Source: Planctomycetota bacterium
GTDB lineage: Bacteria > Planctomycetota > JACQVV01 > JASMLP01
Direction of reading: 5' to 3'
NCBI GenBank assembly: GCA_030748635.1
Contig: JASMLP010000166.1
Location: forward strand, 1 to 64,000
Length of the DNA stretch: 64,000 bases
The notes under the pieces: model-generated
Seen by the model: only the letters and a program-made list of their open reading frames with translations
Told to the model about the DNA's origin: nothing
Database searches by the model: none
In this document: piece by piece, positions 13,686 through 61,108 of the stretch
Position numbering within the stretch: position 1 is the stretch's first letter
Layout of the letters: each line of letters opens with the position of its first letter
Program-made: the position numbers and the translations under genes

Positions 13686-14327
13686 TCAGGCCCGACGCTC
13701 GGGAGCAGAAGGAGACCGTTTGGGTTGACCCTTTCTCTCCGGCCTGTTCTGAAGCTTTTCTCGGGCCGCGTCTCGCTCCGAGGGAGAGAGTTTCCCATCT
13801 CCATCACTGTCAAAACGTTTCAAGAGCATCGCTCGCTTCCGTTCACGAGCTTCCCCATCTTGACCTCGCTCTGCACGAGCCTTTCGAGCCGCAGCCCGCT
13901 CCTGCTCGGATAATTTCCCGTCTCCATCGGAATCGAATCGTTTCAAAAGTCGGGCCTTTCTCTCAGCGCTTCCGGCGCCTTTGCCTTTCTTGCCTTTGGC
14001 CCGCTTGCCTTTGTCCTGACGGCTCTTGGCCTTCGCCTCACGAAGTTTGGACTTTTCCTCTTTGGAAAGTTTTCCATCTCCATCGGTATCAAAACGCTTG
14101 AGCAGCGCCTGCATTCGAGCCTTCCGTTCCTCGGGAGATTGAGCCGATCGTTTTTCTTTGGCTCGTTTGGCTCGAGCTTTTTCCTTGTCGGAGAGTTTTC
14201 CATCTCCATCGGCGTCAAAACGCTCGAGCACCTTGCTCCTCTTGGCCTCACGCTCTTCCTGAGCTGAGACACCGCTGGCCAAAAAACATCCTAGCGAAAC
14301 CATGACTGCTTGAAGTTTCCAGTTCAT
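13686..14327 (-). CDS. Secreted, highly basic four-EF-hand protein
   Basis: The 213-aa precursor has a signal peptide (about 1-22, ending SGVSA). Four canonical 12-residue EF-hand loops follow at 38-49, 80-91, 132-143 and 173-184, all of the form DxDGDGKLSxxE, each preceded by RFD. All metal-coordinating positions (1, 3, 5, 12) are Asp or Glu, so calcium binding is likely. Linkers are extremely rich in Lys and Arg (for example [12 protein letters not shown]), giving a very positive protein. The near-identical loops suggest internal duplication. The start is the ATG at 14327, which begins the signal peptide; the frame is open for 39 further codons. It has its own terminator. Secretion or periplasmic location is inferred; the role is unknown. 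Confidence 0.82.
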
Positions 14328-14509
14328 CACATCACACCCTAACTGATTGAAAAGTTTTGAATCTGCCGATAAATCCGGTTCGGCAAGAATCAGAGCAAAG
14401 TCCATGCCACACACGCAAGCCTTTACCAGCAAAGAATTTCCCATCTGCGTTCGTAAAGGAGATTAGCAAGGCGATGTAAACTTTCTTGGCAAAACACCCC
14501 GAAAAGGAA

Positions 14510-15715: not shown

Positions 15716-17197
15716 TCATTTGAACACAACCGTCCGGTCGTAGCGCATACCTCGACAACGAGTACACACTCGATGCCGTGTTCCTGCGTTGCTCCCCGCG
15801 ACCATATGAACCCGAACTCCCTTGCCTCCGCAACCCGAACAGGGCGTCCAGAGATTCCGTTCGACCTGGAGGTGCTGAATCGCATACAGACCTAACATCA
15901 GATTACTTCGACTAGACCGAGATGCGGCCCGATACCAAAGATTCTTGAGATCCGTTTCACTCTGCCCTCCGGATCCGCCACCCCCTCCCTGGCTCCCCCC
16001 TCGCGACCTACCGGTCTGAAGCTTGGGCCCCCCCATCTTCTCGATCAATTTCTTGATTTCATCGATATCCTTGCTCAGGCCCAGGGCATCCCCCCCTTCA
16101 GTTCCAGCATCTTCCTTGCTAGTTCCTTCAGTCCCCACGAGAAAGGATCCGCTACCAAAACTGACCCGAAAGGATTTTTTCTTGGCGCGTTCCTCGAAAA
16201 AACTCTCGACATCCTGTTCCTCGATTTTCAGCTTGGCCGCAACCAACTTCTTGGCCTCCTCTCCCATGGACCCTTCGGCATAACTTTTCGCCTCATCGTA
16301 TGTCACACCACGCTTCCCCGCCGCCTTTCCGGCCAGAGAACGAAGAGCGCTGATCATCTGATCAAAAACTTGCCTCTGCAAATGAGCATCACGCATTTGC
16401 TGGATCTCTTCGGTGATCAGAGCGGGATCTCGTGTCAGCGCACCTGCATTGTCCTGGAATTCAGCGACAAGTGCTGCCAGATCCGCCTCGGCCTCATCAA
16501 ATCTCTTGGCCTTGGCCTTGGAGAGAATCAAAACGAAACGAGCCTCGATCGCACGACGCTGAACCTCTTCATTTAGCGAAGAAACCCGCTCTGCATATCG
16601 TTCTTCATAACCAGGATCGATCTGAATAGCCTGCTGAAGATGCTCCAGCGCCTTTTCCACGTTCCCCAGACGAACCAGATATTCACAGAGGCGATAATGA
16701 TCCTGAGCGCTCTTGGGATTCAGTCCCTTTAATTGCTGGCGATACAACTCTTCTCCACTGTAGATTTCCGATGCGATCAACTGGATCGCTGTGGCCGTCC
16801 GAATCCGGCTTCGCTCGATCCGGAGAATACCGGAGGAGGTTTTCAACCGGAGCACTTCCGAATCGGTCCCCTTTTCGAGGGGGACCCCTTCCAGCACCCG
16901 GCCGTCCACGAGAAACAGACGCATTCCGCCAACTTTCTCATCCAGATCTTCCTCCAGGATGTATCCCAGCTTTCTCTGGAGCCGTTTTCGGTCGTCCACG
17001 ACCACCCGACTCCACTGAATCGTCACCACTCCACCGGTATCCCACCTCTCCAGAACAAACTGCTTTTCATCGTGTTCCACGATCTCACCCTGCAACCACT
17101 GTCCACCGGAAAGGCGTACGATTTCGGCATCGAGTCCTGAACACAGAAAAACCCCCAGGAATCCGACAAGGCAACTCAACAATAGGTTCTTGGTCAT
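15716..17197 (-). CDS. Exported TPR protein with SH3-like repeats and CxxC motifs
   Basis: Not a recognised family (493 aa). The signal sequence (about 1-25) is followed by two beta-barrel-like repeats, RLSGGQWLQGEIVEHDEKQF and FLVDGRVLEGVPLEKGTDSE, of the pattern hxxDGxxxxGxhxxh. One or two TPRs follow (YRLCEYLVRLGNVEKALEHL), then a Gly/Ser-rich linker, and a C-terminus with CSGCGGKGVR and CTRCRGMR. The Cys motifs resemble the DnaJ zinc repeat (CxxCxGxG) and may bind one zinc. I chose ATG 17197, preceded by GAGGAA; a TTG at 17221 overlapping the previous stop is possible. It is the last protein of the pseudopilin run and shares the DGxxxxG module with other proteins of that run, suggesting a common role. 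Confidence 0.72.
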   Translation of the reverse strand: MTKNLLLSCLVGFLGVFLCSGLDAEIVRLSGGQWLQGEIVEHDEKQFVLERWDTGGVVTIQWSRVVVDDRKRLQRKLGYILEEDLDEKVGGMRLFLVDGRVLEGVPLEKGTDSEVLRLKTSSGILRIERSRIRTATAIQLIASEIYSGEELYRQQLKGLNPKSAQDHYRLCEYLVRLGNVEKALEHLQQAIQIDPGYEERYAERVSSLNEEVQRRAIEARFVLILSKAKAKRFDEAEADLAALVAEFQDNAGALTRDPALITEEIQQMRDAHLQRQVFDQMISALRSLAGKAAGKRGVTYDEAKSYAEGSMGEEAKKLVAAKLKIEEQDVESFFEERAKKKSFRVSFGSGSFLVGTEGTSKEDAGTEGGDALGLSKDIDEIKKLIEKMGGPKLQTGRSRGGSQGGGGGSGGQSETDLKNLWYRAASRSSRSNLMLGLYAIQHLQVERNLWTPCSGCGGKGVRVHMVAGSNAGTRHRVCTRCRGMRYDRTVVFK

Positions 17198-17217
17198 CAC
17201 AACTATTTCCTCGTCAC

Positions 17218-17619
17218 TCAATAGGGGAACTTTCTCAGCAAGATGGTCCGGAACATTCGAGTTTGTTTTTCACCCCGCTCCGCCCACTCCACTTCGATTT
17301 CACTCAACACTTCGAATCCTACCGAATCCAGGGCCTCAAAACGTACATTGTAGCTAAATCCAGGATATTGACGGCTCTCCCGTTTCTGGATGTTCGCCAA
17401 AGGTTGCCTGATCACGAAATGAGGAGAAGATTCGATTTCTGAAACGAGAGAATCGACCAGCAGAGTCACATCGGTCTCGATCTGAGCCTGACGATGGGAC
17501 CAGGTTGCGGCCATCAGCAAACCCACTAGCGACCCCATACCCACCACGAAGATCCCCAAGGCCACGAGGATTTCGACCAGTGTAAATCCCGATCTGGAGG
17601 AGGGTGTATGGAGTCTCAT
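17218..17619 (-). CDS. gspI: Minor pseudopilin, GspI/PilV-like
   Basis: A short (133 aa) type IV pilin-like protein. The leader MRLHTPSSRSG is followed by FTLVEILVALGIFVVGMGSL, a class III signal with Gly at -1 and Glu at +5, which a prepilin peptidase would cleave and methylate. The mature domain is small, as in GspI (the minor pseudopilin that nucleates the tip complex with J and K). The ATG overlaps the stop of the J-like gene (ATGA), with GGAG ten bases upstream. The assignment as I rests on size and position next to J and K; sequence alone would only say minor pseudopilin. Confidence 0.8.
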   Translation of the reverse strand: MRLHTPSSRSGFTLVEILVALGIFVVGMGSLVGLLMAATWSHRQAQIETDVTLLVDSLVSEIESSPHFVIRQPLANIQKRESRQYPGFSYNVRFEALDSVGFEVLSEIEVEWAERGEKQTRMFRTILLRKFPY

Positions 17620-18704
17620 CGGGATTCACTCCGTAAAGGTAGACTCACCGACAATGAGCGAACCAGAGTAAATTCACGGCCGACCCAGACCGGAGTCCCC
17701 GCGGGATGAGCCTGGGCGTTCGTTCCGCGCTGACCACGACGTACTCCCAGTAGCGCTCCGTCCCCTTGCGACCGATATCCGATCCACTCCGTTCCCAATC
17801 GCGCATAACGGACCTTGTCGTCGGAGGGGTTCGGAAACCCCTTCAACGAAAGCACAGAAATACGAGCCGCGCGATCGTCAATATCGGTAAGGGTGTCGGT
17901 TCGAATCGAAAGTTCGGGGGATTGAGCGACGAGGGTCACGCGGATCTTTGCCGGATAAAATCCATCTACCAGCCTCGAAGCGACCGGATCTCCACGGTAC
18001 GGGAAGGTACTCGACCGAGCACAACTCGAATCCCAATTCGTAAGAGGGCCCCCGCTACGTACGCTCTGTCCCTCAACCCAGGTCGTGCTCTCGGGCCCCC
18101 CGTAGAGGACGTTGAAATAAAGCACATTACTAGCGATCACCGACCCGTTGTTCTCGATGTATTCGGGCGTGAGATTGTTCGGATCGAACAACGAACCGCT
18201 ACCGCCTAATGGACTGCGACGAATCCGCTTGATCTCCTGACGATCTGGGTCATACACATACAAAATCTCCACCAAACCGTCCTGAGCTCGCAACCGTACG
18301 CCCGGCACCTCTCGTCCCATGTAATAGTCTTGATAGCCCTCACTGACCGACTGCTCTCCGGCCCGATAGGTAATGAGCGTTTCATCCCTTTCGCTGAACG
18401 AGGCGACAAAGAGAAGAAATACCCGGCCGTTGGGCTGTTTCCCTCCGTAGAGACCGTACCTGATCGCTCCTTCAGACCTACCGGTCGGATGAAGGAGTTC
18501 CAGATCTCTTCCGATCTCCTCGAAAGCGATCCGGGCGCGTGCATACGCTTGCCGGGTCCCTTCACCCGCCTTCCAGGTTCTCAACGTGCTCGCCGTTGTC
18601 GTCACCAGCATGAGGCTCAGAAAGGTAAGAATGGCCACCGCAACCAGCAGTTCAGCAAGAGTAAATCCACCCTCGGAACTACCGTTCCTAGGCAAAGATC
18701 TCAT
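17616..18704 (-). CDS. gspJ: Minor pseudopilin, GspJ-like, with tail-type repeat module
   Basis: 362 aa, with leader ...SSEGG and mature start FTLAELLVAVAILTFLSLML; the +5 Glu and -1 Gly are present. ARARIAFEEIGRDLELL after the membrane helix is typical of GspJ. GspJ is usually about 200 aa; here a C-terminal extension (about 283-342) contains ARLGTEWIGY...VRRGQRGTNAQAHPAGTPV. The same module is repeated in the neighbouring K-like protein. The start has a perfect AGGAGG ribosome site and overlaps the upstream stop by four bases (ATGA). It would sit at the tip of a pseudopilus with I and K. Confidence 0.8.
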   Translation of the reverse strand: MRSLPRNGSSEGGFTLAELLVAVAILTFLSLMLVTTTASTLRTWKAGEGTRQAYARARIAFEEIGRDLELLHPTGRSEGAIRYGLYGGKQPNGRVFLLFVASFSERDETLITYRAGEQSVSEGYQDYYMGREVPGVRLRAQDGLVEILYVYDPDRQEIKRIRRSPLGGSGSLFDPNNLTPEYIENNGSVIASNVLYFNVLYGGPESTTWVEGQSVRSGGPLTNWDSSCARSSTFPYRGDPVASRLVDGFYPAKIRVTLVAQSPELSIRTDTLTDIDDRAARISVLSLKGFPNPSDDKVRYARLGTEWIGYRSQGDGALLGVRRGQRGTNAQAHPAGTPVWVGREFTLVRSLSVSLPLRSESR

Positions 18705-21700
18705 CGGCCCTCCTGATTGTGATAAACCCGTTCGGGAGTGCTTGTGGATACGGCTAATTCATTCAGTAGGGGCGACCGTTTCCAGTCCCCAGCCTGGTAG
18801 GAGCCGTTCCGATACCGGAACATAAAACGGATTTCCATTTCATCGGCCTGAATTCCCAGTTCATGTTCCGTATCCGCTCCCTCGAAAAGCCAAAGTCCGC
18901 CGGGCCGATTGGTAGGGGCAGAAGCCCAGGAAGGACTCCCGTCGAATCGAGCCAGAGCCACCACTTCGAGGCGATTCGAATCGACCACTTTTCCAAAACG
19001 CAAGGTACGAAACCAGGATCCGGGACGATTCACAGCCATCGTGTAATAGGCGAGTTCGGGTCCATCATATTCCAGTGCGAAACGGTCCGGATACCGAAAA
19101 GGCATCTGGTAGACCAGAGATCCCGCGGAGTGAGCTTCTCTGGAGGTCCCGAATGCGCCTCGAAAGATCCCCTTGCTATCCACCGATGGCATCCACAGCA
19201 CCCCTTGACTCCGTCGGGTATATCCGACCATCTCGGCTCCCACCCGAACATACCCTTCATTGGAATAGCCGGAAACCGAAGAGACTCGAAGCGCGTTGTC
19301 ATCCGCTCCCAAACCCGAAGTGAGAGCTGAAGCAACGAGATGAGATTGAGGAAAGACTAGAGCCCCCCCCGCATGGGCACCCGACGAAGAGCCCAGATAC
19401 CCGCGAATACATCCCTGTAGCACCCCCCCACCCGCCTGAGTCACGAGCCCGGTATATCCCACGTATTCATCACCGATTTTGACGATCCCGCCCGTTGCAG
19501 AAAGCCCGGTCGTAGAAGACACCTGAATCACGCTGTCCGAAGCAGAAATTCCGGTGCCAGATGCCAGCGGGAGTCCCCCCGTCACGGCCAATGCGCCGGA
19601 ACGCAATTCGTCAATAACTCCGGAACAGGTCCCACCCGCAAGACCGGACGCAGGCCCACCAAAGAAGACAGCCCCCCCGGTATAGGGCAATTCTCCCGTG
19701 GGAAATTTCAGAAGGCGCGAACCCCCGGAAGCGGCATAAGTACGACTCACCCATCCCCGAAAAGCGACCCGGTTTCCAGAAACCCAGTTGACCGTCATCG
19801 AAAGTCGACTTCCCAGCGCGTTCCCTTCGATCAAGGTGACCGAATCGAATCGTCCCACCTCGCTGGAGGTGGCGTTTCCGCCGACAGTGAATACCGGTTC
19901 GACCTGGGTTCCCGACCGATGCTGCACTTCGAGAGTTCCGTCCCGGGCCCGAATAAGCGCATTTTGAAGAATCTGATCCAAGGTTGTAACCCCGTTGGCA
20001 AGATCCTGGATCAACTGAGGGATCTGAGACTGAATCGATTGCATATCCACCGATTCATAGATAAAGAATCGCCCCATCTGGATCGAAGAGTAGTTGATCC
20101 ACTCATCGTCGATCTGGATCGAACCGCTGGCGGGATAATCCGACGCATTATCCACTGCGACCGAACACGGGATCACATAGGAACCTTGAGTAATGGTACG
20201 CGGCAAGGTGCCCAGTTGCCCCCGTTGACACCCCGAAAGACTGTTACTCGATTTCCCGGTGTAAGATACGTACTCGAAACGTATTCCAGGAAAGCTCAAT
20301 CGAACCAGTAAAGCAAATCCCTCCGACGGAAAGGCCGAGGTATTCTGCACGGGGATGATGGTGTCGGTCGCCGGCAGCGGTTGACCGATCGGCACATTCA
20401 CCAGAGTAAAATCGAGTGGATCCAGGTCTTCAGAAAGCGACCCGCCACCTCGCTGCAGATCGCTCGTCACCGGGATCGCGTAACCGTAGGGAAGAACCGG
20501 TGTCCCGCTAGCGTGCGACATCGGCGCGGTTCCGGCCCGATTCCGACGACTGCTGGAGAAACCGGGTGTGCTGGTGCGAACCGTCAAGCTCCGTCCAGAG
20601 ATTCGTTCGTATTCGATGACCTCTGTCCCGATCTGTACCACCCCCTGGGCGGGAAGATCGACATTCCGGTCCAAAGTAATCGTCCTCGACGAGGCACTCA
20701 GAGAGCCCGCTAACCGGGCGGAAAGAGGCCCCCCATCGCCGGTTCGGTAGGCGAACTCTGTTCCCGCATCCCAACCATCGATGAGTAAAGACAGTCCGCC
20801 ATAAGCGGTCGAATTCCAGGCCACATCAACATGGGACCACTGTCCGAGAGGAAGAGGTCGATTGGCTCGAGTCTCCGCATAGGCGGCCTCCAGAGTCACA
20901 TCGTATACCTTGAAAGATAAAGCGGATCCTTCGTCGACGAGGCTCAATCGGTCGGAAACGTCTCCCGTTCCAGAATCGAGAAGGATCTCTCCCCGCGACC
21001 GAGGAGAAAACCAGAACTGAATCACTCCTGGAGCCAACTGCCCCCCGGACGTTGCAAGGCTATTGATCAGCCCCTGGGACCTCTGAATCGTCCGCCCCTG
21101 GTGACTTCCCGCAAAATGCTCACGACCCGGAAGAGGCATCGGCAAAAGACCGACCGTTCCCGGTTCACCCTGCTCGGGCAACTGCAAAGACGAACGGGCT
21201 CCTAGAAAACGGGGTCCAGTCACCACCCACGAGGAGAGCATAAATTCCTTCGACCTGCGAAAACCGCTCTGCGTTCCGACCGAATAGCCCCCCATCGCAG
21301 GCAGTGCGACCAGCTGTCGAAGAGTTTGTCGAGACCGTTCCGCGCCCGCGTCCCCGCTGACCCAGCTAGTCCCTTCAATCCAAAAAAGTCGCCCAGCCGC
21401 ATAGGAGAAGGGAGCCGTAGTCTGCCGCAACCGTGAGGCCTGCTGCCAGCCGATCGTGCCCCCCCCACGACGCCCCCGCCTTTCGGTATAAGTCGCAGGA
21501 GCACCGCCGGGATGCTGACCCGCCACCAGAATCGAATTTTTGATACTCGGATTCATCTCATCCGAGGGAATGGAATCGAGTACCGATGACAGATGAACAG
21601 GCCCCCGAATCGCCTCCCCCCGGTCACGCAGTGAGAGAATTTCGCGGGTGACCCGGAGGGCATCGGAGTGGGTAACCACCACACTTCCCGTCCCACGAAT

Positions 21701-22837
21701 CCCGGACAAAAGCGCCACAAGCACTTTGGGGGGGGCGCTGTTGACCTGAACCGGGATGGGAGAAAGCACCGAGACTCGCGCAGCCGTCGTAAAAGCAATT
21801 CCCAGTTTTTGATGGAGGGCCAGCTGTCCGGACTGGACTCCTCGCACCAGGCCGTAAGCTTCTCTCCCTCCCTCCTGGATCCGCACCACAGAGCCGGGAT
21901 AGACAAAATCGATCCGATCGACTCGTAGTACATCGGGCACGTTCAATGCGGAGCTGCTGGGCAAAGTATTGCGCAGGAACTGTTCTCCCGTCCAGGTAGA
22001 GACATCTTCACACCAACCCCGCACCGTCAAATAGGGAGCGATCCGGTTGAATTCGCTTCGTGACAATGTACTCGACCCCAGATCCGCAATCCTCCGAACC
22101 TCTTCGACAGTCCGAAAAGGCTGCCAGCGAGAAGGGTCGCGTAACGGATATTTGGCTATCTTGTAGGCCCGAGCGTCGATCACGTGAGTACCGGCCGCAT
22201 GCATTCGAGCCGAGTAGTATTCAAATGGGCGCGAATCGTTGAGTACCGCTCGGGTTAACTGCTCGAAACCGGTTTCACTTCGAAACTGATACCCGATCAG
22301 TTCACCGTTGACAAAAAGGAGTCCCGCGTCGGGAAATCCTCGCGTGGATTCGACTTCAAGAACCGCCGTTTCCCCTTGCGGTAAATTCCGGCTCACCACC
22401 GTGGAGGCCAAAAGGTTTCCAAGCAACGAGAAGTTAGCCCGGTTCAGATCGATCAGCCCGGCCGCATCCTGGGCACGGGCTGTGATGAATCTTCCGCGAC
22501 CCGCAGCATCCACCCCAAGTTTCCCTCGCAATTCCGCTCCCATCCAAACGGAAGATTCACTCGGGAGGTCGTACTGGGGAGTATCAAAGGGCGGTTCAGC
22601 CCGAGAACTGGACTCGGAGGTCCGATCGGTCGAAACCAGCGAAGCCTTTGCGTGAGCCAAAGCGGTCCGGGCGCCCAGGCGAGCCTCGAAACGGGCGCTA
22701 AAACCGAGAGCTTCCCGACGCTCGATGCGCATACTCACCGAGAAGGGAATCACGATGATGGCCAGTAAGGCCAGTGTGGCGATCACCAGGAGCAAGGCGA
22801 TGCCCTGACGAGAATACTTCCCAGCGAATGAGTTCAC
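18701..22837 (-). CDS. gspK: Giant GspK-like pseudopilin with split LamG domain and repeats
   Basis: 1378 aa against about 330 for ordinary GspK. The N-terminus RQGIALLLVIATLALLAIIV is the K-type pilin helix without the +5 Glu, and DAAGLIDLNRANFSLL plus VNSAPPKVLVALL match the GspK SAM-like core. Inserted and appended are: a module at 156-220, a LamG-like region that opens at about 603-698 (VIQFWFSPRS...LLIDGW), further modules at about 716-783, 825-890 and 892-918, what looks like the closing LamG strands at about 1040-1080 (GVIDELRSG), and modules at 1100-1162 and 1179-1244. The start is GTG at 22837, overlapping the previous stop (GTGA) with GGAG upstream. It is presumably the tip protein of the pseudopilus with a large exposed head. 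Confidence 0.78.
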   Translation of the reverse strand: MNSFAGKYSRQGIALLLVIATLALLAIIVIPFSVSMRIERREALGFSARFEARLGARTALAHAKASLVSTDRTSESSSRAEPPFDTPQYDLPSESSVWMGAELRGKLGVDAAGRGRFITARAQDAAGLIDLNRANFSLLGNLLASTVVSRNLPQGETAVLEVESTRGFPDAGLLFVNGELIGYQFRSETGFEQLTRAVLNDSRPFEYYSARMHAAGTHVIDARAYKIAKYPLRDPSRWQPFRTVEEVRRIADLGSSTLSRSEFNRIAPYLTVRGWCEDVSTWTGEQFLRNTLPSSSALNVPDVLRVDRIDFVYPGSVVRIQEGGREAYGLVRGVQSGQLALHQKLGIAFTTAARVSVLSPIPVQVNSAPPKVLVALLSGIRGTGSVVVTHSDALRVTREILSLRDRGEAIRGPVHLSSVLDSIPSDEMNPSIKNSILVAGQHPGGAPATYTERRGRRGGGTIGWQQASRLRQTTAPFSYAAGRLFWIEGTSWVSGDAGAERSRQTLRQLVALPAMGGYSVGTQSGFRRSKEFMLSSWVVTGPRFLGARSSLQLPEQGEPGTVGLLPMPLPGREHFAGSHQGRTIQRSQGLINSLATSGGQLAPGVIQFWFSPRSRGEILLDSGTGDVSDRLSLVDEGSALSFKVYDVTLEAAYAETRANRPLPLGQWSHVDVAWNSTAYGGLSLLIDGWDAGTEFAYRTGDGGPLSARLAGSLSASSRTITLDRNVDLPAQGVVQIGTEVIEYERISGRSLTVRTSTPGFSSSRRNRAGTAPMSHASGTPVLPYGYAIPVTSDLQRGGGSLSEDLDPLDFTLVNVPIGQPLPATDTIIPVQNTSAFPSEGFALLVRLSFPGIRFEYVSYTGKSSNSLSGCQRGQLGTLPRTITQGSYVIPCSVAVDNASDYPASGSIQIDDEWINYSSIQMGRFFIYESVDMQSIQSQIPQLIQDLANGVTTLDQILQNALIRARDGTLEVQHRSGTQVEPVFTVGGNATSSEVGRFDSVTLIEGNALGSRLSMTVNWVSGNRVAFRGWVSRTYAASGGSRLLKFPTGELPYTGGAVFFGGPASGLAGGTCSGVIDELRSGALAVTGGLPLASGTGISASDSVIQVSSTTGLSATGGIVKIGDEYVGYTGLVTQAGGGVLQGCIRGYLGSSSGAHAGGALVFPQSHLVASALTSGLGADDNALRVSSVSGYSNEGYVRVGAEMVGYTRRSQGVLWMPSVDSKGIFRGAFGTSREAHSAGSLVYQMPFRYPDRFALEYDGPELAYYTMAVNRPGSWFRTLRFGKVVDSNRLEVVALARFDGSPSWASAPTNRPGGLWLFEGADTEHELGIQADEMEIRFMFRYRNGSYQAGDWKRSPLLNELAVSTSTPERVYHNQEGR
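19106..19540 (-). repeat. Two tandem IGxExIxY...RGxxGT...H..G modules in the GspK-like gene
   Basis: Two copies, encoded at about 19540-19352 and 19303-19106, read VKIGDEYVGYTG...CIRGYLGSSSGAHAGGALV and VRVGAEMVGYTR...FRGAFGTSREAHSAGSLV. They are protein-level repeats that have diverged at the DNA level. Confidence 0.7.
20168..20692 (-). repeat. Two further copies of the same module nested in the LamG-like region
   Basis: Copies at about 20692-20489 (VQIGTEVIEYERISGRSLTV ... HASGTPVLP) and 20365-20168 (FEYVSYTGKS...CQRGQLGTLPRT). A truncated copy, SIQIDDEWINY, follows at about 20164-20084. They lie between the apparent opening and closing strands of the LamG-like domain. Confidence 0.65.
22178..22372 (-). 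repeat. N-terminal copy of the module in the GspK-like gene
   Basis: About residues 156-220: LEVESTRGFPDAGLLFVNGE, LIGYQ, then HAAGTHVID. The RGxxGT part is replaced by a less conserved stretch. It is located between the pilin helix and the SAM-like core. Confidence 0.55.
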
Positions 22838-23877
22838 GATCCGCTCCGGGTCAACGGCGGGGCGCCGTAGCGTTCCGCCTCTTCCTGAGTCTCCAAGATC
22901 TTGATCTCTTTGAAACCTCCCATGCGGGTCACCTCGACCACCGCCCACTTCTCCAGGTTCTCACTATAGAGAAGGACCCGTTCGATATCGGTATCTCCAT
23001 GAACTCCGGAATCGAGACGTCCACGGGCATCGAAGACAAAGCGTTGGGGAGTCCGGACGATCCGGATGCGTTCCGGCAGTTCGATCTGCTCCAGGGTCAC
23101 CACATGATCCAACCGGACCTCATCGATGATTCCCTGAAAAGGCAAACTCGGGTCACTCACCGTGAATGTACGTTCCGGCTCCAATCGAGGCATCTCATCC
23201 ATCGGGACGCTTGCGACTCGGACCCGGTCGATCCAGAGCGCGAGTTCAACTCCGTCGGCGACCAGCGCGACATGAGTGAATCGGTTTCCCGTCATGAATC
23301 CAGGCTCGGTAAGGACCTGGGCCCCACCCGACTCACCGACCAATCTCATCTCATCATCCATCCAGAGAACCGCCCCACGTCCCGCCCTCAGAATCACCTG
23401 CCGACAGCGACGCCTGGGCTCCACCCACGCTTCCATCGCAATGCCTGTCGACAACCCAAACTCTCCCAGTAGACCGCAGTCGATTCGGCTTCCTGGCGAC
23501 AGACCAAACAGCCCCCCCTGCCCGAAACGTCCCGAGATCCATTCCACCCCGTGGACCTGTCCATGCCGTCCATAAGCTCCGGTGGTCCGATCATCCTCGA
23601 AATGCCATTGGCCCACGATTCGACGCCCGACACCACGAAAAGAGTTGCGACTCGAATCGATCTCGACCTGGGATCGAGCGGAACCCGCCAACGCCCACTG
23701 ACGCGCAGTTCTCAAAACAGACACGATCTGATTCCCTGAAGCTTCAAGCCGGTGTCCACGGCGAAGATTCGAGAAAAACGCGCTGCTAATCCCTAAAATG
23801 ATCGCCACGAGACTCACCACGACCATCAACTCCACCAGCGTGTAGGCCCGAGACCCACTGGAGGAGATCGGCCGCAC
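22834..23877 (-). CDS. gspH: GspH-like pseudopilin with inserted LamG domain
   Basis: 347 aa; GspH is normally about 150-190. The N-terminus GSRAYTLVELMVVVSLVAII is a pilin helix, but Ala occupies the -1 position in place of Gly. LEASGNQIVSVLRTARQWAL is the GspH-type alpha helix. At about 86-257 a LamG/concanavalin-like domain is inserted (VGQWHFEDDRTTGAYGRHG; SGIAMEAWVEP-type strand; FQGIIDEVRL end strand). The GspH beta strands then resume (IRIVRTPQRFVFDARGRL). The start is GTG at 23877 just after the previous stop, with AAGGGG upstream; a TTG at 23895 is possible. It overlaps the K-like gene by four bases. The insertion would display a ligand-binding domain on the pseudopilus. Confidence 0.8.
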   Translation of the reverse strand: MRPISSSGSRAYTLVELMVVVSLVAIILGISSAFFSNLRRGHRLEASGNQIVSVLRTARQWALAGSARSQVEIDSSRNSFRGVGRRIVGQWHFEDDRTTGAYGRHGQVHGVEWISGRFGQGGLFGLSPGSRIDCGLLGEFGLSTGIAMEAWVEPRRRCRQVILRAGRGAVLWMDDEMRLVGESGGAQVLTEPGFMTGNRFTHVALVADGVELALWIDRVRVASVPMDEMPRLEPERTFTVSDPSLPFQGIIDEVRLDHVVTLEQIELPERIRIVRTPQRFVFDARGRLDSGVHGDTDIERVLLYSENLEKWAVVEVTRMGGFKEIKILETQEEAERYGAPPLTRSGS

Positions 23878-23879
23878 CC

Positions 23880-24512
23880 CTATTTCCCCTTCCAACTGGT
23901 GATATCGTCCGCTTCGCCGCGATCATCCACCCCGTTGGGCCCCACCGACCAGATCTGATAGCGTCCTTCACCCGGTAGCACACCTTTGGTCTTGGTGGTG
24001 ATGGGTGCGATGGTAGTCAGTCGACCATCAATCATGTAGGGCACACTACGTCCCCGAAGGACCTCGGCCCAGGAGAAATAGATGTATGGGTTGCCCCAGG
24101 GGTCGACCAACTCGTAGAGTTCAGTGGTATCGCGTGCGCCTGTATAAACACTCAACGAACCCCGAACCTGATCCTCATCGGTATTTTGCAACCGAGCCGG
24201 CGGCAATTCGTGATAAGGACCTTTCCCTCGACGAGTATCCAGGCAGGCGACCAGGCATTCGTTGCCTTCATTCGCGGGTAATCCCCCCGCACCCAGCAGC
24301 GAAAGTCTCGAGGGTGGATAGGCCTGAAAATCCTGCTCGTAAGATTCCAGTGCGGTTCGTAAGTGGGCAATCTCGTTCAGAGATGCCGCCGATTTACCAC
24401 GCGATAAAACACTGCCGATAGTCGGCACCAAAATCCCGGCAAGAATTCCGAGAACCGCAATGACCACCAACAATTCGATCAGGGTAAACGCTTGGCGTTG
24501 TATTGAGGACAT
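23880..24512 (-). CDS. gspG: Major pseudopilin GspG-like
   Basis: 210 aa. QRQAFTLIELLVVIAVLGIL is the pilin signal with Glu at +5 and Ala, not Gly, at -1. The C-terminal half has the GspG hallmarks LVDPWGNPYIYFSW and YQIWSVGPNGVDDRGEADDI, the latter resembling the calcium-site loop of major pseudopilins. It is longer than classical GspG (about 140 aa) by an insertion in the middle. The ATG at 24512 overlaps the previous stop by one base (TGATG) and has GGGAG upstream. It probably forms the pseudopilus shaft. Confidence 0.87.
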   Translation of the reverse strand: MSSIQRQAFTLIELLVVIAVLGILAGILVPTIGSVLSRGKSAASLNEIAHLRTALESYEQDFQAYPPSRLSLLGAGGLPANEGNECLVACLDTRRGKGPYHELPPARLQNTDEDQVRGSLSVYTGARDTTELYELVDPWGNPYIYFSWAEVLRGRSVPYMIDGRLTTIAPITTKTKGVLPGEGRYQIWSVGPNGVDDRGEADDITSWKGK

Positions 24513-27181
24513 CACTGCTCCCTACGTCGAAAAATGAATCTGGCTTCGCTCACAGCGATTCGATACGAACGATTTCTGCGTGCCATCCCGAAGACTCCTA
24601 CCCGGAACCCACCTCCAGAGAATGGAACCTGAACTCGTACATCCCGAGCAACAACTTCTCCGTTGAGCAAAAGATCGTACTGGCGCCTCTTGGACGTCGA
24701 GCGGATCGCAATCTGGACCGGATCCCCCGCAGTCCAGTTACCCAGTATCGTCCATTCGGGAAGACTCTCTCCGTTCACACTGGCCACCACCAACTTGCCC
24801 TTCCAACTTCGTCCGAAATAGAGCCCGGACAACCCTTCGTTCTTCCGACCGCTGAAAAGACCGATCCCCGACCAGGAATCACTAGCCTCGGAAAGATCCA
24901 AAGTGGCTCGAAATTCAACAAATTCCTCGGCATGGGTCGCCTGCGCCATCAAAGTGATTCCGTAATCGACAGATGAGATCCCCTGGAAGACCGCCTGTTG
25001 ATTTTCGATCCGCACCTGGACTCCACGGTCCTCCTTCTCCTGCCACTTCCGATAGATATTCATGTCATCGGATCGGGCGAAAACATCGGCCCACTGCCAC
25101 TTGGAAAGATTATCCCGTATCGAAGCCCGACAGATCTTAGCGTGATCCAGAAACTCGCGACTACGAGCGGTGAGCAGATCCCGAGCGGAGGCGTCCGTCA
25201 CCGAAGCCATCTCTTCCTGATACCGCTCCTGGGCGTCTCGAAATTGCTCCTCGGCCTCGATGAGATTCCCCTTCAACGATTCCAGATATCCGAATCCCAG
25301 AGGTGCGCCGAGGAAGGTTGGGTCCAGCGAGGAGGCTCGCTCGTAACAGGTACGAGCATGAACCCATAACGGAGTACGAATATTTTCCTCTGAAACCTTC
25401 CGGGCAGATTCCAGGTACACACGTGCTAACTGAGCATACTTTCCGGCTGTCGCTCGACGCGCGATAGATGTTCGAAAGAAACGGATAGCGGAGTCCATTT
25501 GACCACTCTCCATCGCCAGGACTCCCAGTCGACTCATGCAATCGGTCAGCCCGAAATCTTTGCGCAAAGCGGACTCATAGGAATCTTTTGCCTTCTGATG
25601 GTACGGACTAGCCGAGTCTCCTCTCGCCATCCTCCACTGGAAATTAGCGAGAAAGTAGTCGGCGAAGGCGTTCGTTGGATTGCTGAAAAGCGCGTCCGCG
25701 TAGAGAGCCTCGACCTCCGCCGGCTCCATCTCACTCTTTTTCTCTTCCAGAGCCGCGAGCCCAAGGAACGGGAGGCAAGAATCCAGGGACATTCTAACAC
25801 TCGCTTCTTCGAGAGCGTTTTCCGCATCGCTATATTCCTTTAACCCGAAAAGCGTAACGCCTAAAGAGTATTGAATAGGTCCGGCTTCGGATTCGGTGGC
25901 GGACGAAAGAGCTTTCTCGTACAAAACTCGAGCCGCCTCGAGCTGTCCACGAAGATAATAGGCTCCCCCAAGAAGCTCATAAACGCGAACACCGGCCTCT
26001 TCGGAGGAAGACAATTCAGTCCCCAATTCCACCGCCTCATTCACCCGCCCCGTCACCAGCAACGCCTCCAGGAACAAGGTCCGCCCCGGAAGATCCATCC
26101 CTCCTCCCTTGGAGATTCTCTGCAAAATCCGATACGCGGACTCCGTCTCCCCCGCAACCAACTGAGACCGGGCCAATTCGATGAGATGATCCTTGTTCTT
26201 GGATGCGACCTTCCCACGATCTCGCAAAGCCCACTCGCTCGTTCCTAGCGCGGGCGTTTCCAGTATCACCGCCCGAGCGGCCAGTAGTCCGGGATCATCA
26301 TTGCGAAGACTCAACCCCTCATTCAATACCCCCAAGGCGTGATCTAGATTCCCCAGAAAACGGTTGAGGTTCGCCAATTCGATCCGAACGCGACTCGCGC
26401 TGGGTTGCTTGTCGAGAAAAGCCTGGTACGACAAGACAGCCACCGAGCGAAGTTCCTGATGTTCCCGACATTCCCGAGCCAGATCCAGAACGGCGCTCCC
26501 GCCCCGGGATCGCAAACTCTCGAGATGGTCGAGATACACATTTTCCAGGCTGCGAACACGTTCGATTCGAGCGACCTCACCTCGATCAAAGCTGCGTTGA
26601 ACCGATCCTTGTACATTTCGGAAATACACCTTGTCTTCCTCGACCTGTAACAAAGTCCCCTCCAGACGCCTTCCGTCTTCCAGTTCGATCACGTCGTGCA
26701 AACGTACCTGATCTTGCAAGCTTGGAGGACCGGTCGCCGTTGGGATCATCAAACCGGGTTGCCCGGAGGTTGTTGGAACAGGAGAGGCAAGAGTCGCCAC
26801 AGCCTCAGGAACGCCAGGAACCAGCGGCAACGTCAACCAGTAGCAAGCGCTCGCATCCGGTAACGGGGAGATCGGCAATCGTAGCGGCACCAGTCCCGGC
26901 AAGGGAGGCAGGGAAAGGCTCGGCGGCGGAAGCGGACGTTGATTGTTCGAGAAGCGGAACGGATCGTGCTGCGAATTTCGCCAATAGAAATCCAGATCCT
27001 GATCGATAAACACACCCTCCTCGCCCCGAATATCCCCCAGACTCGAACCGGCGCTTCGCATCGGAACCGACCAATCTTCCGGCTCCGTCGCATCCAACAA
27101 CTGTCCCAAAAGAACGGGGGTCAAGATCAGAAGGGTCAGCAACAACTGAACCTGTTCCTTATGTTCGGTTATCCAGTCCAT
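24512..27181 (-). CDS. Membrane TPR protein with C-terminal jelly-roll domain
   Basis: 889 aa, not a named family. One N-terminal membrane helix (about 11-29) is followed by a Pro-rich linker (about 80-140) and the barrel-like module ELEDGRRLEGTLLQVEEDKV (about 165-205). About ten TPR-like helical repeats follow (for example VYELLGGAYYLRGQLEAARV, YSLGVTLFGLKEYSDAENAL). The C-terminal 165 residues look like a beta sandwich (VDYGITLMAQATHAEEFVEF; GIGLFSGRKNEGLSGLYFGR), similar in pattern to LamG or DUF1080-type domains. It lies between the GspM-like and GspG-like genes, where it may act as an assembly scaffold of the secretion complex. The ATG at 27181 has AGGA upstream. Confidence 0.7.
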   Translation of the reverse strand: MDWITEHKEQVQLLLTLLILTPVLLGQLLDATEPEDWSVPMRSAGSSLGDIRGEEGVFIDQDLDFYWRNSQHDPFRFSNNQRPLPPPSLSLPPLPGLVPLRLPISPLPDASACYWLTLPLVPGVPEAVATLASPVPTTSGQPGLMIPTATGPPSLQDQVRLHDVIELEDGRRLEGTLLQVEEDKVYFRNVQGSVQRSFDRGEVARIERVRSLENVYLDHLESLRSRGGSAVLDLARECREHQELRSVAVLSYQAFLDKQPSASRVRIELANLNRFLGNLDHALGVLNEGLSLRNDDPGLLAARAVILETPALGTSEWALRDRGKVASKNKDHLIELARSQLVAGETESAYRILQRISKGGGMDLPGRTLFLEALLVTGRVNEAVELGTELSSSEEAGVRVYELLGGAYYLRGQLEAARVLYEKALSSATESEAGPIQYSLGVTLFGLKEYSDAENALEEASVRMSLDSCLPFLGLAALEEKKSEMEPAEVEALYADALFSNPTNAFADYFLANFQWRMARGDSASPYHQKAKDSYESALRKDFGLTDCMSRLGVLAMESGQMDSAIRFFRTSIARRATAGKYAQLARVYLESARKVSEENIRTPLWVHARTCYERASSLDPTFLGAPLGFGYLESLKGNLIEAEEQFRDAQERYQEEMASVTDASARDLLTARSREFLDHAKICRASIRDNLSKWQWADVFARSDDMNIYRKWQEKEDRGVQVRIENQQAVFQGISSVDYGITLMAQATHAEEFVEFRATLDLSEASDSWSGIGLFSGRKNEGLSGLYFGRSWKGKLVVASVNGESLPEWTILGNWTAGDPVQIAIRSTSKRRQYDLLLNGEVVARDVRVQVPFSGGGFRVGVFGMARRNRSYRIAVSEARFIFRRREQ

Positions 27182-27275: not shown

Positions 27276-28151
27276 TCAAAAATCCTCGAAAAGAATCTTC
27301 CTGGGAGCTTTCTTCTTCCCGCGTCCCGCTCCCCCAGGCGTGGTTCCAGAACTTCCGCCATAACCACCTTGCCCTCCCTCGATACCCGCTTGGAGAGCTT
27401 TGGCGACTTCGTCCCCCTCCTGGACCAGAAGGGCTCCGAGAGTCACTTCCAGTGTCATCAAGGAGTCCTTCGACCGACTTTTGACTGTCGCCTGGCGCAA
27501 CGCGAAAGCGCGACGCGTCCCTCGCAACACCTCATGAAGAAACTCTGCGACCTGATCCGAACTGCCTTCAAGAACCAGACGCAACGGAGTCTCGATCAGA
27601 TAGGGTTCTGACTGGCTCGGAGTAGAAACGGAATGATCGATCGACACGATTCGACGGACACGAGCCGCAAAGGCCGCCTCCAGAATGTCACGAGACATAT
27701 CCAATCGCAGAAGGGCTCGGTCCAGTTCGTCCGCCGTAGGATTGGAATCTCCAAACCCCAGGTCGGGAGGGAACGGCATGGAAAATTCGCTTTGACGTCG
27801 TGTAAATTCGGATTGGAGCGCGAGGCGCATCTTGAAGAAATCGACACTTCCCTCCACCGACTTCAAGGTCAATGAGGGATTCCTCTCGAACGCAATCCGG
27901 TTTTCCAAACGTTGAATCAACGTCGCCAGTCGGGATCGAGACTCCTGAGCCTGAGAAACCAGTCCCGGTTCAGGCGGCACCTTCGCGGCAAAAAGCGACT
28001 GAAGCGTATTGCGTTCATTATGACTATCTTTGCGAGCTTGTTCGACTTTATCGCCCAATCCGCCAAGCACACAAGGCCCCAGCACGACCAGCATACATCC
28101 CTGGATGCCGACCAAACGCACCCAACTCTTGTTTTCCTGGTAAAAAGACAT
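27276..28151 (-). CDS. gspM: GspM/PilO-like inner-membrane assembly protein
   Basis: 291 aa with a single N-terminal membrane segment (about 12-33), a coiled-coil stretch (VEQARKDSHNERNTLQSLFA) and a small periplasmic alpha/beta domain (IETPLRLVLEGSSDQVAEFL, a ferredoxin-like pattern seen in PilO/GspM). The C-terminus is Gly-rich and basic (GGSSGTTPGGAGRGKKKAP). Assignment depends largely on the preceding PilM/GspL-like gene, nine bases upstream; sequence similarity to M/O proteins is generally low. It would form the L-M inner-membrane platform. Confidence 0.65.
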   Translation of the reverse strand: MSFYQENKSWVRLVGIQGCMLVVLGPCVLGGLGDKVEQARKDSHNERNTLQSLFAAKVPPEPGLVSQAQESRSRLATLIQRLENRIAFERNPSLTLKSVEGSVDFFKMRLALQSEFTRRQSEFSMPFPPDLGFGDSNPTADELDRALLRLDMSRDILEAAFAARVRRIVSIDHSVSTPSQSEPYLIETPLRLVLEGSSDQVAEFLHEVLRGTRRAFALRQATVKSRSKDSLMTLEVTLGALLVQEGDEVAKALQAGIEGGQGGYGGSSGTTPGGAGRGKKKAPRKILFEDF

Positions 28152-28160
28152 GAGGGCGAA

Positions 28161-29804
28161 TTACTCCTCGAACTGGACCTGTAGCAAAAAGGAAAGAATA
28201 CCCTGGTCACGGTCAGCAACCTGTTGAACGATTTCGCAACTTTTCAAACGATCAAGTCCCGCAAGATGGGCTGCATAGTCGGCCAAAATGACCTGTACGT
28301 CCGATCTGGATTCCTCGACAAAACCCCGAACAGCAAACACAACGACATCGCTTGAAACTCCGGATGAGGACCTTCCTGAACGGACCTCACCCAAGGACTC
28401 CGCTCCCATCCCCACCGCCTCGATGAAGACATGGACCGGTGTTTCTCGCTTGAGAAGTGCCAGCAATTCGAAGAATCGATTCCCCGGGATAACGGCCCTC
28501 TCGATCATCGTTCTCTTCACACGCAAAAGGGCTGAAGACTTTTCTGTATCCTCGAGCGAACTGGCCAGACCCTGAACACGACTTCTCTCCATGACCAAAC
28601 GATGAGACTGATCTCTCGCTTCTCCCAGATGGCTCCAGGACAGAAATATCGCGAGCAGGAGAAGTACTGCGGTCGCAGCCATGGAAATATAGCTCGGTAA
28701 CCTTCGCCGCGAGAAGTCGCGACGCTTGTCTTCGCCAGAGGAGAGAAGCTCCAGTCGATATCCTTCCGGCTCCGCCGCCATTTGGGCCAAACCAAGGGCC
28801 ACCTGAAAACCCGACTGCGGGTTTCCGAGCAGTTTTCGCGACTCCTCCGTGGCAGGACCCATTTCGATCTGAGGCCGAGGATCAAAGCCGAGAACAGGAG
28901 ATCCCAGACTCTTCATCAGATATTCCCTCAAACCGCAAACCCCAAGCGCCTCGCCGGAGAGTACATAACGGTCGATACGCAATTCGACCAGCGCCAATTG
29001 CAATCGACAGAACTTGATCGCGCTCTCGATACCCGCTAGGATCTGGCTGGCTCCAGCCAAACCCGCTTCCTGACCCGTAGCACCCTGTGCACCCGGGGTC
29101 AGATCCAGCGAATTAAAGATTCGGGAACGAATCGCTCCAGGGTCTCCTCCCGCCCCATCTGCGGCGGAGCCGAGCAAGGCCTCCAAACCGATGGAAAGAT
29201 TCCGCAAAAAATAGAGAGTCCCATCCGATACGATTGCCAGATCCAGGGAGTGAAGGCCCAGATGCACAAGAACCACAGTCTCTTTGGATCGAACGTCTCC
29301 GAACTTCACAAAAGAGCGAAAAAGCGCAACCGAGAGAGGCGTCACAGACTGAATTCCAAGACGAGACTTGCGACCTTGAAGGTATATGGATTCGATCCAG
29401 GGATCTCGCGCCATCGCCACCAGCAAAGCGTATTGATCCACCTTGCGGCTAGGAACATTCAAGATCCGGTAGTCGTAGCACGGCTTCTCTTCCGCGGTCC
29501 GAGTCATCTCTTCGATGTCGAACTCCATCAATTTGGCAAGTCTCCACGCGTTCACCCTGGGCACATGCACATAACGAAGAACGAGATCGCGACCGCTGAC
29601 ACCAACCATACAGGGACGTTTCTTGAAGCCCTCCTGTTTCAGCCAGGCCTGAAGTTGAGTGACAACCTCGGGCGAAAAAGCGCCTTCCGAAATCGGGAAA
29701 CGATTCGCTCCAGCCAACACCCAGGTACCGGCCTCGGTCCGGTCCAAGGCCGCGACCTTCAACTCCGAAGCGCCAATCTCGATCCCTAACCCAGAAGCGT
29801 TCAC
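28161..29804 (-). CDS. gspL: PilM/GspL-like actin-fold platform protein
   Basis: 547 aa. The N-terminal 350 residues have the PilM-type actin fold: LGIEIGASELKVAALDRTEA (phosphate-1), VGVSGRDLVLRYVHVPRVNA, VVLVHLGLHSLDLAIVSDGT (phosphate-2) and YVLSGEALGVCGLREYL. A membrane segment (about 370-390, SMAATAVLLLLAIFL) is followed by a coiled coil and a small periplasmic domain, so the protein fuses PilM-like and PilN/GspL-like parts. It would recruit the assembly ATPase to the inner membrane. The start is GTG at 29804 with GGAG seven bases upstream, 22 bases after the FHA gene, probably the same transcript. Confidence 0.82.
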   Translation of the reverse strand: MNASGLGIEIGASELKVAALDRTEAGTWVLAGANRFPISEGAFSPEVVTQLQAWLKQEGFKKRPCMVGVSGRDLVLRYVHVPRVNAWRLAKLMEFDIEEMTRTAEEKPCYDYRILNVPSRKVDQYALLVAMARDPWIESIYLQGRKSRLGIQSVTPLSVALFRSFVKFGDVRSKETVVLVHLGLHSLDLAIVSDGTLYFLRNLSIGLEALLGSAADGAGGDPGAIRSRIFNSLDLTPGAQGATGQEAGLAGASQILAGIESAIKFCRLQLALVELRIDRYVLSGEALGVCGLREYLMKSLGSPVLGFDPRPQIEMGPATEESRKLLGNPQSGFQVALGLAQMAAEPEGYRLELLSSGEDKRRDFSRRRLPSYISMAATAVLLLLAIFLSWSHLGEARDQSHRLVMERSRVQGLASSLEDTEKSSALLRVKRTMIERAVIPGNRFFELLALLKRETPVHVFIEAVGMGAESLGEVRSGRSSSGVSSDVVVFAVRGFVEESRSDVQVILADYAAHLAGLDRLKSCEIVQQVADRDQGILSFLLQVQFEE

Positions 29805-35667: not shown

Positions 35668-35885
35668 GAGCAACTGCTAAGCATAGTCCCTGGAACCGAG
35701 AGCCCACAAGTCAGGAAACCTCATGAACCTTCCTCCCCCGAAGAATCGGCCCGAAGCGCTCCAACTCGGCCTTCAATATGTAACGAAATGGGTGTATCGA
35801 ATTGAGTATCGAGTGCAACAAATATTTACATTCCAGTGGGTAATCTCTAGTGCAAGCCAGATCCACTCCGAAATTCCCCCATCCA

Positions 35886-42100: not shown

Positions 42101-42395
42101 CCTCCCCAACCCCCAAAATGACACCTACCATATCCGCCTGGCCGAATTCTTTCTTTCGCGCCAGCTGCTATCCGCAGCACTCGACCATTTGCTCGCAGTC
42201 GAAGAAGAAACCCTCCGAACCCGCACCCTTTATCTCGGGCTGGACTTGCTGGAATGGGCGGCTAAAAAGCCGGATATACTTCCCCCCACCGAAACCCGAA
42301 CGCTTCTCCAGAAATACCTGGAAAGTTTCTCAGGATCCCCACGACTTGCCCCTCTTCAACCGCGCATTCAGATTCTCGTCAAGCGCCTCGATTGA
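39174..42395 (+). CDS. Transmembrane Ser/Thr kinase with two GspE-N-like modules and zinc ribbon
   Basis: 1073 aa. Two helical repeats at about 7-62 and 81-138 (GEVFLKLGYLNPEQLQLLLQ and GSILVSRGHLTEDQLDEILL) resemble the N-terminal domain of GspE/MshE-type ATPases. A zinc ribbon follows (C146, C149, C166, C169). The kinase domain (about 260-525) has GHGAMGVIYKA, Lys289 (VCVK), HRDIKPDN with Asp383, DLG and GTPYYMSPEQ, all needed for activity. A Ser/Thr-rich segment, a membrane helix (about 624-640) and a long helical periplasmic region follow, with a small beta part near residue 930. It has its own promoter. It is not linked to an FHA gene directly but lies 3.5 kb from the first kinase. Confidence 0.88.
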   Translation: MASKEEILLGQIALQEDLISSKALDEALTHQESHPHPPPLGEVFLKLGYLNPEQLQLLLQKQKIHLQNPDPVTGIPRGENIFGQLLLKRGLISPKVLHECVRIQGRLTQSGQPKSLGSILVSRGHLTEDQLDEILLQQKQIVSLVCTPCKKRLQIVSYDPSKIYSCRECQGPLTRPDPLPATSSPDPLPQENISPHSEEVRRIVPVEVEQDASDAFLFSLYGGPEGYDAPDLPPPSPQTFEIKTPVEIQDDLCGTRLAGYQILSQIGHGAMGVIYKAKQISLDRIVCVKLLAPQLANHPDFLSRFRREAMAVARLNHPHIVQIFDVCEDQGRHFYSMEYVSGENCRHIQERIGQMTARQGFELLCHLANALQEAHRADLVHRDIKPDNIMVTSKGQAKLADLGIAKSLLSSQDASITDEDILLGTPYYMSPEQASSPETVDHRADIYSLGATFYHLFAGKPPFSGINPESILDKLTHQIAPPLESYRPDLPPGLVALIERSMRKSPNTRYQDATELIDALDSLSDSILSGRSRRIQTRQFHVIEPEAVDISGLQIIEDTETTGNALRHLPLQVPAEISDLKPTALQDTSPRSNSSTHSTRNRITNSSSRASSRKPTSNGLPLKGIAYSSLVILAGIFLFSQQREKAQEKKLLEQEEETRQSNIEQAQGVIRSILSDLNKIASPKPTDIDHLLLRLGALEKDPKFSKWIERDLYDLKSKLLASKESAWESSTKEKVQKLCETQRYVEARRIVSHSLNETRNMPRIAPSLRNLNMEIDRQERKRIRQAIQSARTQLSKKQFQKALELIQLPVTNFSKNSLQLLVTLRTEITRQQSHWLQTQKNNKTQTTERLIAQAQSRLLPFRLQRDRTPASQALTTLLNSPDYSPIAELLRQERSWLEAPSKIESQLIKALKNLSRTVQADTPFLFEFRDNRGRVILSSAQKILQVQPKRNRIMTDKTIIHLNRLTPGCVAKVLSTLPNPQNDTYHIRLAEFFLSRQLLSAALDHLLAVEEETLRTRTLYLGLDLLEWAAKKPDILPPTETRTLLQKYLESFSGSPRLAPLQPRIQILVKRLD

Positions 42396-60971: not shown

Positions 60972-61108
60972 TCCAACTCCGGCCAAAAGCAAAAACTCCT
61001 CTACCAGAGAGAAGTCCCCTCAGGCCCTAAGTTCCGTGATATTATCCACTTTTCACGTTTGGCTCCAAACTCATTCCAGTGAATTTGACCTCTATTCCCA
61101 AGAATTCA

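Follow-up and report, generated by a model that had tools for sequence, protein, structure and literature searches.

Within the tip complex, the uppermost position is assigned to the pseudopilin GspK (PMC6211770, PMC9934059). PilC of Streptococcus sanguinis is a tip minor pilin whose concanavalin A (ConA)-like lectin module binds glycans (PMC9934059). Modular pilins with a ConA-like module are a known kind, PF13385 being a listed pilin module (PMC8179133), and the most extreme multi-domain example named has 860 residues (PMC8179133, PMC9934059). ComZ of Thermus thermophilus, a GspK-like pilin whose sheet accommodates a large inserted domain, has been proposed as a tip receptor (PMC6561018). 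Here we describe a giant GspK-like minor pseudopilin of 1378 residues, encoded at 18701-22837 on the minus strand of a 64,000-nucleotide stretch (the window) of Planctomycetota contig JASMLP010000166.1 (assembly GCA_030748635.1). Its laminin-G (LamG) domain is itself split by repeats. We consider it rather probable that this protein caps the tip of a planctomycete type IV-type filament as its K-type minor pseudopilin, and that barrel modules have enlarged its head about fourfold into a LamG-centred ligand-binding structure.

The 1378-residue GspK that the initial annotation had claimed at 18701-22837 is borne out by the frame, its flanking overlaps and its homologues. The gene has a GTG start, 1378 codons and zero internal stops, and is present in single copy in the source genome, a draft of 217 contigs. 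The GspH-like gene ends within its start, in the letters GTGA, and the GspJ-like gene begins within its stop, in ATGA; the GspJ/GspI pair and the pair formed by a tetratricopeptide repeat (TPR) protein gene and GspG overlap likewise. Hence, TPR, GspG, GspH, K, GspJ and GspI belong to one coupled operon.

AlphaFold (AF2) was run on two parts of the protein, residues 1-620 (28 homologues) and residues 545-1378 (35 homologues). The first model was confident to about residue 520 except at 444-468, and it displayed the hallmarks of the GspK fold, namely the long N-terminal helix, the pilin sheet and the inserted alpha domain. When compared by VIA-align, it matched E. coli GspK (3ci0_K) with a Z of 14.4 over model residues 41-516 (233 aligned, root-mean-square deviation (rmsd) 3.4). 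The four best PDB chains were all GspK or Pseudomonas XcpX (Z 13.6-14.4, model residues 9-517; XcpX chains 13.6-14.3), while the next, unrelated rows reached Z 9.9. Among the matches listed by Foldseek alone for the N-terminal model GspK did not appear; the second-look alignment listed it. A sequence search of solved structures with two profiles gave chance-level matches only, plus GspK 5vtm_X at E 0.29. The predicted GspK fold occupies residues 1-516 (21290..22837, minus strand).

The prepilin-like N-terminus reads RQG-IALLL (residues 10-17), with a cleavage-like glycine at G12. In an alignment of 39 sequences, the window protein included, position +5 after this glycine is L, M, A, S, I or T and never Glu. 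Glu5 is present in GspG, GspH, GspI and GspJ of the same operon. A missing Glu5 is a mark of GspK, the tip-capping pseudopilin. Thus, the modelled GspK fold together with the missing Glu5 supports a position at the filament tip, as had been proposed from the initial reading, and the head may be exposed outside the cell. The NCBIfam GspK model NF037980 matches residues 11-105 weakly (E 9e-5), with 22.1-24.9 bits against a cut-off of 130 bits. Because this cut-off is missed, we term the protein GspK-like and not the equivalog. Among 29 homologues, 27 match NF037980 and 15 match T2SSK.

The interruption of the LamG domain by repeats was confirmed, in slightly smaller dimensions than first described. 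The motif VIQFWFSPRS lies at residue ~605, LLIDGW ends at ~689 and GVIDELRSG starts at 1073; this spacing of ~384 residues agrees with the claimed ~380. The closing half begins already at ~1038, so the interruption itself measures ~340 residues. The first half comprises residues 579-697 (20747..21103, minus strand), as indicated by Pfam PF13385 (26.7 bits for the full-length protein, against a gathering cut-off of 27.6, and 27.9 bits for part 545-1378) and by LG chains whose alignments start at model position ~35, equal to protein residue 579. The closing half, residues 1038-1082 (RLLKFPTGELP...GVIDELRSG; 19592..19726, minus strand), aligns with the terminal strands of LG domains and shows the highest conservation of all segments (mean pairwise identity 40.8%). 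Between module M5 and this closing half lies region X (residues 986-1037; 19727..19882, minus strand), which is beta-rich with strands predicted at good confidence and has no match to the barrel modules in the profile comparison.

The model of residues 545-1378 was good throughout, with a mean predicted local distance difference test (pLDDT) score of 88 and a predicted template modelling (pTM) score of 0.84. Its top PDB match was agrin 3v64_B (Z 15.1, rmsd 2.5 A, 145 residues), and the alignment spans model positions 35-538, equal to protein residues 579-1082, as a complete LG jelly roll. LG domains generally aligned over this same range with 143-153 residues, many of the rows ending at ~1081-1086. 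As the first half alone offers only ~120 residues, each of these alignments has to draw on a further part of the chain, and it ends inside the closing half. When the LamG of the neighbouring GspH-like protein, which is uninterrupted, was used as a profile, it matched the spliced halves at E 3.6e-12, through the G.IDE.R strand, compared with 2.5e-9 for the first half alone. These results support the prediction that residues ~579-697 and ~1038-1082 form one closed jelly roll in which the two parts pack together. If the two stretches were instead separate, unrelated domains, and the split a coincidence of motifs, one could point to Pfam LamG_3 (PF13385), which matches the first half only (residues 606-694, E 7e-6), and to the weak similarity of the closing half alone to the GspH LamG profile (28% probability). 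That explanation is very improbable, since the LG alignments over 579-1082 take in more residues than the first half can supply, splicing lowers the E value of the profile match nearly a thousandfold, and both halves occur in 39/39 aligned sequences.

The enlarged head also contains barrel modules, all encoded on the minus strand. Two of them, M1 (residues 137-230; 22148..22429) and M2 (residues 274-361; 21755..22018), lie within the GspK fold. It is these barrels that interrupt the pilin fold; LamG is not inserted in that fold, which closes at ~516, but comes after it. Three modules separate the LamG halves, namely M3 (residues 696-796; 20450..20752), M4 (798-893; 20159..20446) and M5 (891-992; 19862..20167). 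After LamG follow M6 (1084-1169; 19331..19588) and M7 (1163-1252; 19082..19351), and then a C-terminal beta domain (1253-1378; 18704..19081). This last domain is present in 39/39 aligned sequences and has long, high-confidence strands in the model; no family match was found for it.

Profile-profile comparison of orthologous columns linked M1 and M3-M7 at 81-99% probability, and five control regions gave nothing at or above 15% in the same comparison. A module hidden Markov model (HMM) found six copies in the giant protein with E values of 5e-14 to 3e-24 (M1 2.9e-15, M3 1.5e-20, M4 9.6e-17, M5 5.1e-14, M6 3.6e-17, M7 3.1e-24), and it also matched GspJ, which was absent from its training, at E 3.9e-15. 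By sequence, then, M1, M3, M4, M5, M6 and M7 are one repeat family. M2 is a barrel by structure; its profile comparison was weak, and sequence homology to the other modules was not demonstrated.

The repeats have detectable homology to phage virion proteins. M3 matched phrog_7578 (1.4e-6), a family without assigned function; M4 matched the virion structural protein family phrog_4406 (5.2e-11) and, in addition, a baseplate wedge model; M6 matched phrog_2885 baseplate wedge (2.8e-9) and, in addition, a tail protein model; and M7 matched phrog_11439 tail fibre (9.5e-6). The lowest PHROG E value was 5e-11 for the window protein; one homologue reached 8e-19. With residues 700-986 as query, tblastn returned a cyanophage baseplate wedge (51% over 51 residues, query positions 124-174, in M4), and the module HMM matched this same gp7-like phage protein at 7e-10, the best shuffle giving 1.6. 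By structure, M1 resembled the phage Chi tail tip (8vjh_A, Z 9.3), and M2 resembled a phage tail tube (9n71_A) and the JBD30 baseplate (8rk3_D) at Z 9.9. A structure search of viral models gave 104 matches at 1e-3 or lower, including phage proteins annotated as baseplate wedge initiator, fibre or 'FCCH domain'; most of the phage matches cover a single module.

Homologues were found widely in Planctomycetota. A first contig scan of genomes with a single protein as query gave no match. With the full protein as query against 79 relatives, 54 had matches, mostly as long, stop-free single frames. Forty homologues extracted from other genomes are each encoded in one frame of 1273-2291 residues, a few being cut by contig ends. 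When the C-terminal part was used as a profile, 214 of the 392 sampled Planctomycetota genomes matched at 1e-10, representing 152 of 267 genera, and the named homologue records of a separate collection are nearly all Planctomycetota metagenome-assembled genomes. An alignment of 20 sequences was too diverse for patterns; one of five sequences was usable. The LamG split is present in 39/39 aligned sequences, with an insert of 308-738 residues (median 487), and an unsplit form was found in none of these giants. As the split layout is kept in dozens of relatives, it is real and appears to be old.

It might be argued that the gene is a product of assembly, of a frameshift or of a two-gene fusion, for which the draft state of the genome (217 contigs) might leave room. 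The check for a frameshift or mis-join found none, and a two-gene fusion or an assembly artefact is ruled out by the same one-frame architecture in independent genomes across the phylum; we give such an origin practically no weight. Three genomes (G051, G088 and G107) have one in-frame stop inside the giant-gene match, which may reflect decay or an error of sequencing. One relative locus (L077, 3877-12072) holds two tandem giant genes of 1284 and 1358 residues. In the source genome itself, two further contigs (C146 and C92; loci L157 and L158) encode large GspK-like/PilX-like frames of 790 and 1089 residues without barrel modules.

The window operon runs in the order PilM-like gene, assembly-like gene, TPR protein, GspG, GspH, giant K, GspJ, GspI and a protein at 15716-17221, all of the genes with strands given below being on the minus strand; the giant is thus encoded together with GspG, GspH, GspI and GspJ. 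The PilM-like protein (28161..29804, minus strand) matches PilM_2 at E 6.2e-8, and in 22 of 46 named relative loci its gene again lies upstream of the giant. The next gene (27276..28151, minus strand) stands where PilN/O or GspM would be expected; it is called assembly-protein-like from position and recurrence only, and no Pfam match was obtained for it. A membrane-anchored TPR protein follows (24512..27181, minus strand; TPR matches), its stop overlapping the GspG start. The GspG-like major pseudopilin (23880..24515, minus strand) matches TIGR01710 at E 6.9e-17, below cut-off. The GspH-like pseudopilin (22834..23895, minus strand; N_methyl E 4e-5) has its own uninterrupted LamG (LamG_3 E 2.3e-6 at residues 149-271), which sits between the N-terminal part of the pseudopilin and its C-terminal strands. 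Downstream of the giant, the GspJ-like pseudopilin (17616..18704, minus strand; N_methyl) carries one barrel module at residues 256-351 near its C-terminus, making at least three decorated pseudopilins in one operon. The GspI/PilV-like pseudopilin (17218..17619, minus strand) was assigned from family matches, and the protein at 15716-17221 next to it recurs at the same place in relatives.

In the 46 named loci, GspG and GspH lie upstream of the giant in 25, GspJ downstream in 35 and GspI downstream in 31, and the full set occurs in 21; many of these loci are contigs too short to show all neighbours. Five loci (L072, L073, L079, L092 and L105) have none of the four pseudopilin neighbours at the threshold used, and a motif scan near them gave no typical prepilins; short contigs explain some further loci of this kind. 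L072 and L073 are among the closest giants in sequence. Secretin, T2SSE and T2SSF genes lie elsewhere in the source genome, which has several secretins and a separate type II secretion system (T2SS) locus D-E-F-G-H-I-J. In most relatives examined, no such genes lie near the cassette; isolated GspE- or GspF-like matches were seen near four loci. As the cassette has no secretin, ATPase or platform gene, it is probably served by an assembly machine encoded elsewhere in the genome.

From these data, a working scheme can be proposed. Residues 1-516 would form the GspK fold with two barrels built in, and the LamG (ConA-like) domain would begin after this fold closes. The chain would exit the jelly roll after its 'DG' strand, pass three barrels and return to complete the same jelly roll, and the closing strands would be followed by two more barrels and the conserved C-terminal beta domain. 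Once processed by prepilin peptidase, the giant may cap a filament, put together by the machine encoded elsewhere, in company with GspJ, GspI and GspH. Its LamG-centred head, the GspH LamG and the GspJ barrel could then offer a composite ligand-binding surface. By analogy, the head would bind a ligand, probably carbohydrate or another surface polymer, and the barrels may act as rigid spacers or extra contacts. In two planctomycetes, pili-like fibres are the structures to which dextran binds (PMC5394234).

Several points weigh against this scheme. The structure is a prediction and not a solved one, and the packing of the LamG halves was deduced from which of its residues aligned and how many. 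Ligands other than carbohydrates are also bound by LG folds. T2SS pseudopili are normally periplasmic, so the head may never leave the cell. Moreover, the NF037980 score of 22-25 bits is far under the 130-bit equivalog cut-off, and no ATPase, platform or secretin of its own was found in the cassette within the stretches examined. A periplasmic pseudopilus of T2SS type would give the head another task, in which it recognises exoproteins or pushes them toward the secretin while LamG binds the cargo or its glycan. We regard this as possible, though doubtful: a G-H-I-J-K set with a GspK fold is a pseudopilus gene set in a genome with several secretins and a T2SS locus, but that locus owns a G-J set, no secretin is near the cassette in relatives, and the PilM-like and PilN/O-like neighbours fit type IV pili at least equally well. 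The head might also be mainly structural, with barrels and LG serving as a plug or gasket that sizes an outer-membrane pore, or setting filament length, without ligand binding. GspK has been reported to control pseudopilus length (PMC6211770), and the insert varies over 308-738 residues, as spacers may. We nevertheless hold this to be unlikely, because no part of the protein is better conserved than the LamG closing strands and the GspH of the same operon has a LamG too, both of which better fit a binding role. The filament-tip scheme may be carried further, to a phylum-wide filament with a composite-receptor tip (split-LamG GspK, LamG GspH and barrel GspJ), built partly of phage-type modules and acting as a polysaccharide-capturing fibre tip; this is put forward as a speculative idea with a small chance of being right.

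Elsewhere in the window, a small protein at 13686-14444 (minus strand) contains repeated EF-hand-like DxDGDGKLS motifs. Four apparent Ser/Thr protein kinases are encoded at 32785-35673 (minus strand), 39174-42395 (plus strand), 45702-47252 (minus strand) and 59670-60992 (minus strand), and some of them have a similar N-terminal segment ahead of the kinase domain.

Compared with GspK/XcpX (3ci0, 5vtm, 6utu), the giant shares the pilin fold with an inserted alpha domain, the absence of Glu5 and the gene set G-H-I-J-K. It differs in having 1378 residues against ~300, barrels within the fold and ~860 extra C-terminal residues, and in falling well short of the score required of a GspK equivalog. 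Verru_Chthon cassette protein A (TIGR02600) is similar in its model length of 1296 positions and its pilin-like start, and weak matches to it occur in 6 of 29 homologues (best 6.6e-5). Membership was rejected, as the window protein scored 8.7 bits against a cut-off of 332.3 and only 54 N-terminal residues match. ComZ resembles the giant as a GspK-like pilin and proposed tip receptor with a large insertion in the sheet (PMC6561018), whereas the ComZ insert is a beta-solenoid proposed as a DNA receptor, and ComZ has neither LamG nor barrel repeats.

With its predicted N-terminal pilin module (the GspK fold) and an extra domain that is not pilus-specific (the LG domain), the giant would count as a modular pilin. 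PilC and PilB of S. sanguinis are minor pilins with a ConA-like lectin or vWA module grafted at the tip, and in both an intact domain follows the pilin (PMC8179133, PMC9934059). No modular pilin with an interrupted lectin fold was found in the literature on modular pilins, and our literature search found no description of the giant itself or of its size, conserved nesting, phage-baseplate-like modules or phylum-wide spread. The modular-pilin principle is thereby extended in size, to 1378 residues here and ~2300 in relatives versus 860, and in nesting, as a lectin-type fold split by repeats and conserved across the phylum. The operon also names a concrete gene set as a candidate for the polymer-binding fibres of Planctomycetota. 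In sequence and fold, the repeats resemble phage modules (phrog_4406, 2885, 1101 and 11439; cyanophage gp7; Rcc01698_C; the E1 FCCH-like domain). Those modules are parts of virion proteins, whereas here the same kind occurs in a putative pilus-tip protein, so that the tip of a bacterial filament would share modules with the baseplates or tail fibres of phages.

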